A stretch of 64,000 bases of DNA from Synechococcus sp. CBW1107 (GTDB taxonomy: Bacteria > Cyanobacteriota > Cyanobacteriia > PCC-6307 > Cyanobiaceae): assembly GCF_015841355.1 (NCBI RefSeq), contig NZ_CP064908.1, positions 2,852,001-2,916,000 of the forward strand. Reading direction: 5' to 3'. A program made the position numbers and the translations under genes. The notes under the pieces are model-generated. The model made no database searches. It was not told where the DNA came from and saw only the letters and a list, made by a program, of their open reading frames with translations. Below are positions 31,201 to 32,504 of this stretch, piece by piece (positions within the stretch are counted from its first letter, which is position 1; each line of letters opens with the position of its first letter).

Positions 31201-32133
31201 ATGTCCAGCCCCTCCCCCGTGCTTGTGATCGGCCGCTCCGGTCAGGTGGCCTCCGCCCTACGACGGTTGGCACCGGTCCTGATGCCCCAACGATCGCTGC
31301 TGCTGGCTGCCCGTCCCGAGCTGGATCTGGCTTCCCCAGCGCCTGAGCTGGCCGCCACCGTCGAGCAACTCCTCGAGCAACACCAGCCGGCTCTGGTGCT
31401 CAATGCCGCCGCCTACACCGCTGTCGACAAGGCCGAGAGCGAACCCGAGCTGGCGACGGCCATCAACGGCACGGCCGTGGGCGTGCTGGCCAGCGCCTGC
31501 GCCGCCCGCTCCCTGCCCCTGTTTCACCTCTCCACCGACTACGTCTTCGCCGGTGACGGCGAGCGCCCCTGGCGGGAGGACGATCCCACCGGTCCCCTCG
31601 GGGTCTATGGCGCCAGCAAGCTGGCCGGCGAGGAAGCCCTGCGAGCCGCCGGTGGCCCCCATCTGCTGCTGCGGGTGAGCTGGGTTTTCGGTGAGGAGGG
31701 CGCCAATTTCGTGCGTACTATGTTGCGCCTGGGCGCCGAGCGTCCAGCACTTTCGGTGGTGGCCGATCAGATCGGCGGCCCCACCAGTGCCGAGTCGATC
31801 GCCACTACCTGGCTCAGCCTGGCCGAGGCGGCCATCACCAACCGCTCACCCCTGGATCCCGATCAGCCCTTCCCCTGGGGCACCTATCACTACGCCGGCG
31901 AACCGGCCGTGAGCTGGTGCGGCTTTGCCGAGGCGATCTTTTCCGAAGCGGTAGCGCTGGGTCTGCTGGCACGTGCTCCGGACCTCACCCCGATCCCCAC
32001 CAGCGCCTACCCCACCCCGGCGCGGCGCCCTGCCAATTCCCGAATGGATACCAGCCGATTCCGTGCCGTCTTTGACATCCCTCCGCCCGATTGGCGCGAG
32101 GATCTCCGCAACTGCCTGCGCGCATGGGCCTGA
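31201..32133 (+). CDS. rmlD: dTDP-4-dehydrorhamnose reductase
   Basis: A 310-residue reductase for the final step to dTDP-L-rhamnose. It has a Rossmann start ([16 protein letters not shown]), [44 protein letters not shown] (Tyr/Lys) and [14 protein letters not shown]. The start is four bases after rmlA. Its 3' end overlaps the next small gene by 10 bp. The order rmlA-rmlD here differs from the dead cluster at 1,470-5,112. Confidence 0.95.
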
Positions 32134-32504
32134 TCCGATCCTCGTTTCAACTCTCCAACCCGTCCCAGGCGCAGCTGCAGCCTGTGGACGTGCAGGCCCT
32201 GGTCGACACGGGCGCCGTACACCTCTGCATCCCGGAACATCTGGTGATCCAGCTTCAGCTGCGGGAGCTTGAACGCCGCGAGGTGGTTCTCGCCGATGGC
32301 CACCGGCGCAGCGTTCCCTATGTGGGCCCGGTTGAAATCCGCTTCCGCAACCGCCGCTGCTTCACAGGAGCCATGGTGCTGGGCGATGAAGTGCTCGTGG
32401 GAGCGATCCCGATGGAAGACATGGATCTGGTGTTGCGCCCGCAGCTGCAGAGCGTGGACGTGAACCCAGAAAGCCCCAACATTCCCCTCTCACTCGCCAA
32501 ATGA
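32124..32504 (+). CDS. retropepsin-like (clan AA) aspartic protease-like protein
   Basis: A 126-residue protein with the single-domain retropepsin pattern. [19 protein letters not shown] has the catalytic DTG triad near residue 26, and a hydrophobic-hydrophobic-G-like segment appears in [28 protein letters not shown]. Such proteins would act as dimers. They are common in cyanobacteria, often as small stand-alone genes, with no known substrate. It overlaps rmlD by 10 bp and rmlB by 4 bp, so it is expressed within the rhamnose operon. Start chosen at 32,124 because upstream codons lie inside rmlD in another frame. Confidence 0.75.

Follow-up and report, generated by a model that had tools for sequence, protein, structure and literature searches.

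A retropepsin-like protease gene with an apparently incidental place in a cyanobacterial rhamnose operon, and recurrent loss of the catalytic glycine among its relatives

Results

A protease gene overlaps both of its rml neighbours

We analysed a 64,000-nucleotide stretch of the Synechococcus sp. CBW1107 genome (NCBI RefSeq assembly GCF_015841355.1, contig NZ_CP064908.1, positions 2,852,001 to 2,916,000), herein called the window. A small gene lies inside its rml operon and overlaps the coding sequence on either side, in the following arrangement (window positions):

30294..31196, + strand: rmlA, glucose-1-phosphate thymidylyltransferase (TIGR01207)
31201..32133, + strand: rmlD, dTDP-4-dehydrorhamnose reductase (TIGR01214)
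32124..32504, + strand: gene for a 126-aa clan AA aspartic protease (TIGR03698), from an ATG at 32124 to a stop codon at 32502-32504
32124..32133, + strand: 10 bp shared by the protease start and the rmlD end
32205..32213, + strand: codons of the D28-T29-G30 catalytic motif (from the sequence and a motif alignment)
32501..32504, + strand: ATGA, 4 bp shared by the protease stop and the rmlB start
32501..33574, + strand: rmlB, dTDP-glucose 4,6-dehydratase (TIGR01181)
33576..34139, + strand: rmlC, dTDP-4-dehydrorhamnose 3,5-epimerase (TIGR01221)

All four Rml proteins exceed their own NCBIfam equivalog cut-offs. The original prediction had placed a single-domain retropepsin-like protein within these genes, with overlaps of 10 bp to rmlD and 4 bp to rmlB, and the coordinates agree. 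The gene is more than a chance reading frame, given (i) its score against TIGR03698, (ii) orthologues at the same junction, which are intact and 91% identical in two congeneric genomes, and (iii) values of dN below those of dS; in its own genome, the protein is the sole match at E ≤ 1. From the gene overlaps we infer translational coupling to rmlD and rmlB; i.e., with a start inside rmlD and a stop overlapping the rmlB start, the protease would probably be made by re-initiation on the rml transcript. A scan for sigma-70-type consensus sites across 30000-34300 returned 0 promoter-like sites against 0.6 in shuffled sequence, which is weak evidence either way. Just upstream of rmlA, an IS256-family transposase gene (Mutator type; 28560-29870, - strand) suggests a rearranging polysaccharide island.

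The encoded protein is predicted to be a single-lobed retropepsin

The window protein scores 73.3 bits against TIGR03698, for which the NCBIfam cut-off is 57.35, with a match spanning profile positions 4-105 of 107; it misses the Pfam gathering scores of gag-asp_proteas (PF13975; 25.8 against 28.2 bits) and Asp_protease_2 (PF13650; 22 against 24.3 bits). A structural model built from 20 relatives has a mean pLDDT of 91.7 and a pTM of 0.82, and is uncertain only from about residue 120 on. The best PDB matches of this model by Foldseek are the retropepsin domains of HIV-1, XMRV, HTLV and Ddi1 (3mws_A, E 6.3e-5), and VIA-align superposes it on XMRV protease (3slz_A) over 103 residues with a Z of 12.2 and an rmsd of 2.4. 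A sequence search of the PDB gave a single match at E 1.1, taken as chance. We are thus highly confident, on the strength of the model, in a predicted retropepsin fold for the window protein.

In retropepsins, D-T-G is the catalytic motif, and a later hydrophobic-hydrophobic-Gly triplet is the motif of the psi loop. The window copy carries both, as D28-T-G and L91-V-G93; in a 20-row alignment of relatives, D28, G30 and G93 are invariant and L91 nearly so. The N-terminus joins the first strand of the predicted fold at residue 3 and no signal peptide is apparent there by eye, which makes the originally proposed surface-protein substrate unlikely. The protein is expected to be a cytoplasmic, single-lobed protease that, by analogy with known retropepsins, would act as a homodimer with one shared active site.

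The gene is intact at a minority of equivalent rmlD-rmlB junctions

Within the genus, 4 of 9 genomes have a protease match (a 3' fragment in one of the four), and rmlD of the window type occurs in 8 of the 9. Across the taxonomic family, 190 of 400 genomes carry rmlB at E ≤ 1e-100, 19 of which have the window type (at least 83% identity; two of the 19 are partial genes). Intact protease genes occupy the junction in five of these 19 (G000, G005, G007, G170 and G058), spanning three genera with overlapping or near-overlapping junctions throughout. One further genome, G090, has a copy with an internal 90-bp deletion, two have clear remnants (G006 and G002; shuffle p 0.0005 each), two have doubtful short scars (G004, p 0.19; G001, p 0.72), and nine junctions are devoid of any trace of the protease. 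The G001 scar was dropped as a clear remnant, its alignment being no better than those of shuffled sequences. The G090 copy is shorter than that of G058 by a multiple of three, such that the middle of the protein is missing.

The protease, intact in 5 of 19, is hence not a conserved component of this operon type; of the 14 operons lacking an intact copy, three are clearly broken (G090, G006 and G002). Absence from the rml operons of close relatives had been named at the outset as the mark of a chance insertion, and such absence is largely what these genomes display. These counts weigh against a first alternative, in which the operon position is functional and the protease regulates the rhamnose pathway by trimming or degrading RmlB, RmlD or a glycan-assembly protein, even though retention of the junction in five genomes of three genera speaks for it.

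Where the gene is kept, it appears constrained. Compared with the other four embedded copies, the window copy has a dN of 0.047-0.165 (approximately 0.05-0.17) and a dS of 0.39-1.24; judged by these substitutions, the protease is under purifying selection where it is retained. In G007 and G170, rmlD is less conserved than the protease, indicative of strong selection on the latter. A modestly supported branch (85/35; recovered in 83% of 200 bootstrap trees) sets the five embedded copies apart from the other relatives, and they probably stem from a single capture. On the rmlB tree, a former presence of the gene requires four changes when the doubtful scars are scored as having had it.

Relatives occupy unrelated operons and show no recurring partner among the larger neighbouring ORFs

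We fetched 40 genomic stretches, of which 39 cover 41 of the 55 matches in the taxonomic-family genomes and one comes from G006, and counted 38; L037 (G006) and L044 (G343) were left out as tblastn found no long copy in them. Only four of the 38 loci lie in an rmlADBC operon. Another five, all of one genus (L043, L045, L046, L051 and L054), lie on the opposite strand beside an rml cluster of a different type. In ten, type I restriction genes (fragments in some cases) lie no more than 5 kb away, a count that comes from related genomes and has no control; two have only a Uma2 gene nearby; and 17 have no rml cluster, type I restriction gene or Uma2, with a distant rmlB-like enzyme in two of them. 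The names restriction, Uma2 and lumazine synthase rest on a Pfam check of one example each. At L120 (1181-9403) and similar Cyanobium-type loci, passenger genes sit between hsdR and hsdM of type I restriction operons, namely the protease, Uma2 and, judged by eye, ORFs resembling VapB.

Further settings are equally varied. On Synechocystis plasmids, including pSYSA of PCC 6803, a relative with 59-62% identity lies between cmr4 and cmr3 on the opposite strand, a position within the type III-B CRISPR operon seen in the three of seven plasmid records that were looked at (L113 and L114 included). In L138, L139, L141 and L155, which come from Rhodocyclales or their near kin, the protease resides in an acyl-CoA carboxylase cluster, downstream of an enoyl-CoA hydratase gene; a biotin carboxylase gene follows it immediately in L141 and at a greater distance in the other three. 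In one Sulfuricella locus (L159), the protease is flanked by genes for a glycosyltransferase and an epimerase, upstream of rmlB, A, C and D, and the copies in L140 and L162 also adjoin genes for nucleotide-sugar enzymes.

The loci beside the second type of rml cluster, together with L159, L140 and L162, could be cited for a regulator of the rhamnose pathway. Against this, the 49 non-cyanobacterial loci (L138-L195 minus nine cyanobacterial ones) have rml genes only in L159 and one distant rmlB-like enzyme in L162 (0 of 20 in a control of shorter stretches), the L159 copy carries D28N, and gene gain is in general common in polysaccharide islands. The first suggestion, of a part in rhamnose synthesis or in the processing of an Rml enzyme, is thus not supported: relatives live in unrelated operons, and no partner recurs among neighbouring ORFs of at least 60 aa. 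We regard the regulator alternative as improbable.

No neighbour family (ORFs of at least 60 aa) recurs in more than 8 of the 80 loci around the best 80 relatives. This is at odds with a second alternative, in which the protease is one partner of a two-gene toxin-antitoxin module: a conserved adjacent partner of that size, as expected for a type II module, was not found in these 80 loci, and the window copy is flanked by rml genes only. In its favour, the gene is small, solo and patchy; Uma2, called a likely solo toxin in the part of that account available (PMC2701414), is near the protease in several loci; and PIN genes lie upstream in 2 of 44, and ParE genes downstream in 2 of 41, of the relatives. 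These upstream and downstream sets exclude cyanobacterial loci and ORFs of less than 90 aa. We consider a two-gene module quite improbable. The antitoxin-like pair entertained in the original prediction is left with its toxin-like half, consistent with recurrent loss of the catalytic glycine (see below), and without its partner.

Four further candidates were set aside. A general defence neighbourhood outside the cyanobacteria was not borne out by PADLOC, which matched 1 of the 44 upstream neighbours and at least a few of the 41 downstream ones (65 families). A control set of 95 proteins, drawn from 142 called ORFs, gave a similar scatter (19 families). ORFs in the neighbour and control sets were called longest-first rather than with a gene finder. 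Built-in stop and start signals as a device for operon entry are not a family rule, being present in a minority of relatives (TGA at +7 in 30 of 97; a terminal AAGTGA or AAATGA in 23 of 103). Antisense ORFs overlapping the protease formed the largest families in the first clustering of cyanobacterial loci (up to 30 loci); they are probably a mirror of a conserved G+C-rich gene. A phage or viral origin was likewise rejected: 50,697 phage records held no relative, and among 13 IMG/VR stretches fitting the peptide pattern none was confirmed.

Two side observations concern individual copies. L041 (G204) contains three tandem protease copies 2.1-2.2 kb apart, two of which run from NPTRP directly to AVHLC and so lack the strand bearing the catalytic Asp. 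In L040, L056 and L065, the sequence TGGCTACSGT ends six bases before the ATG of stand-alone copies (by eye), and is possibly the extended -10 element of a leaderless or near-leaderless promoter.

The distribution is patchy, with mixed groups on the gene tree

TIGR03698 members were found in 44 of 400 taxonomic-family genomes at E ≤ 0.001 (36 over the cut-off), in 9 of 59 genera. At E ≤ 1e-20, relatives are present in 18 of 386 genomes of the cyanobacterial phylum; for the order to which G730 belongs, the figure is 14 of 399. Sampling 84,980 species by one genome each yielded at least 535 relatives; the best 80 of these plus the window protein span ten named phyla, with five rows unplaced, at 60-91% identity. 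Plasmid copies came from only seven records, all of Synechocystis.

On the gene tree, members of a phylum tend to group together, the labels requiring 14 changes against a minimum of 9 and a shuffled mean of 36.7, so transfer between phyla has not been rampant. There are some mixed starred groups all the same, one joining Synechocystis salina with a Nitrospirota bin, and another joining Chroococcus with Elusimicrobia, Verrucomicrobia, Spirochaetes and Brocadia. The case for rampant phylum-crossing from identity alone is weakened by the Rml enzymes as a control: the four window enzymes are 43-64% identical to those of L159 (rmlB 55%, rmlA 64%), and the 60-75% identity of the protease across phyla is only slightly higher. 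Transfer is supported by patchiness together with the mixed groups, and not by identity alone.

The catalytic glycine is lost repeatedly from otherwise intact copies

Among the 125 tight relatives, 111 retain D-[T/S]-G at the aligned position and 14 do not; a few of these 14 are generally degenerate copies or alignment gaps. For a stricter count, we used the 103 distinct intact proteins, excluding those with fewer than 150 bits, with stops, or with fewer than 119 of 126 columns, and counted radical replacements (BLOSUM62 below 0) in the 47 core columns conserved in at least 90%. G30 has 7 of the 43 such replacements, the most of any core column, followed by G2 and C35 (four each) and M1 and A31 (three each). 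With 43 replacements spread evenly in simulation, the probability of any column reaching 7 is 0.0017, a figure that serves only as a guide since columns differ in tolerance and since the pattern was first noticed in 81 sequences before being tested on the larger set that contains them.

Close pairs of loci point to the same residue. L125 and L128 have 23 synonymous differences and a sole amino-acid change, G30R; L147 and L152 have 18 and a sole change, G30V; the flanks of both pairs are 90-95% identical. Five close pairs in all have one amino-acid and at least three synonymous differences (P13A, T29S, S14I, G30V and G30R). L125, L147 and L152 are marked as bins, and L128 is not so marked. Elsewhere, D-[T/S]-G is replaced by D-S-E in the copy on the PCC 6803 plasmid. 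Recurrent loss concentrated on the catalytic glycine of otherwise intact copies is new here. We read the pattern as that of a protease whose catalysis may be costly and repeatedly purged, in the manner of a solo toxin or a defence protein.

Six dead-copy genomes were checked for a second relative. Those of L145, L170 and L182 also hold one with D-[T/S]-G, so the activity may survive when one copy is lost; those of L128, L152 and L159 have no other at E ≤ 1e-8. The otherwise conserved sequence of dead copies, and the live relative in three of these six genomes, could suggest that the protein acts by binding and not by cleavage, dead copies being functional through, e.g., the poisoning of active dimers. 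The retention of the motif in most tight relatives and the dead copies of G1144, G1146 and G726, which have no other at E ≤ 1e-8, are contrary to this idea, and we hold it to be highly improbable.

A more serious contender is an ordinary, conditionally useful processing protease akin to RimB or RloA, lost by drift in hosts that lack its substrate, whose catalytic losses are early pseudogenes. It would account for the low dN/dS where the gene is kept and for the broken and truncated copies, and characterized bacterial retropepsins are regulatory or stress-related in the available parts of their accounts (PMC11957791, PMC12239564). Random decay, however, should not favour the catalytic glycine, and we judge this alternative somewhat unlikely. 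That such single-lobed bacterial enzymes can be active and regulatory, as RimB, RloA and APRc show (PMC11957791, PMC12239564, PMC4140852), provides the strongest rival to a solo-toxin reading.

Discussion

We propose, at roughly even chances of being right, that the window gene is a solo accessory protease captured into the rml operon, with catalysis that is sometimes costly and a target not specific to rhamnose. The gene would encode a self-contained, cytoplasmic, retropepsin-like protein and spread as a single accessory gene. It would have been captured between rmlD and rmlB, probably once, in an ancestor of this cyanobacterial group, and be expressed there by re-initiation. Two copies of the protein would pair, each supplying a D28-T-G to one active site as in HIV protease, and the dimer would cleave a cytoplasmic target; occurrence in unrelated operons and phyla argues that this target is not rhamnose-specific. 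As catalysis would be costly at times, hosts would either drop the gene or point-mutate the catalytic motif, leaving the rest of the protein intact. Deletions and catalytic-motif changes would be easier to reconcile with an effector that acts as a solo toxin or in defence than with an aid to sugar synthesis. The link to rml thus looks incidental, and we would see the gene as a passenger of the operon, captured once, expressed by way of its overlaps and often lost.

A bolder extension of this captured-protease proposal, tentative and on balance unlikely, is that the family constitutes a new class of stand-alone effector, i.e., an HIV-protease-like solo toxin or anti-phage protease, passed on horizontally, that would enter existing rml, type I restriction and Cmr CRISPR operons and be expressed along with them. 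Selection would strongly preserve its sequence and would recurrently abolish its catalysis in hosts with a mismatched target or trigger. Whichever account holds, operon membership is no safe guide to function, and an annotation without a function has been narrowed to two questions, namely whether the active enzyme is harmful and what it cuts. We found no role for the TIGR03698-type family in the open-licence literature, nor any title or abstract there on a family member in an rml operon (rhamnose was not a search term).

Among known systems, the nearest is TIGR03698 itself (clan_AA_DTGF), which the window protein matches over nearly its whole length, and for which the NCBIfam line, "clan AA aspartic protease", gives no function. 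The present branch differs in being tight and highly conserved (LCIPEH, PMEDMDL) and in having D-T-G-A where the model name suggests D-T-G-F. Retropepsins (MEROPS A2, HIV-1 protease) and the RVP domains of Ddi1 share the predicted fold and the position of D-T-G; identity over the aligned part is approximately 11-22%, and the window protease, in contrast, is a free-standing bacterial gene devoid of a polyprotein or partner domain. The window protein probably belongs to COG5550. The part of the account available for that group describes clan AA peptidases of prokaryotes that have a single domain of approximately 120 residues and are "little known", with a table of ten sequences (PMC2642776, Llorens et al.); length and organization are as in the window protease, and that part holds no data on genomic context or catalytic loss.

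RimB, RloA and APRc are, like the window protease, single-lobed bacterial enzymes with D-T-G, and in the portions of their accounts available they are reported to be active, dimeric or both (PMC11957791, PMC12239564, PMC4140852); RimB acts in a RimABK complex (PMC11957791), RloA is secreted (PMC12239564), and APRc has predicted transmembrane helices (PMC4140852). Uma2 (PF05685) offers a comparison of another kind, being described in the available part of its account as a likely solo toxin that is mostly solo and abundant in cyanobacteria (PMC2701414). Like the protease relatives, it occurs in the same restriction operons; Uma2 is a predicted nuclease, whereas the window gene product is a predicted protease. 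By analogy, and within what that account covers, Uma2 would be the closest solo-toxin precedent for cyanobacteria that we have met in print (PMC2701414).
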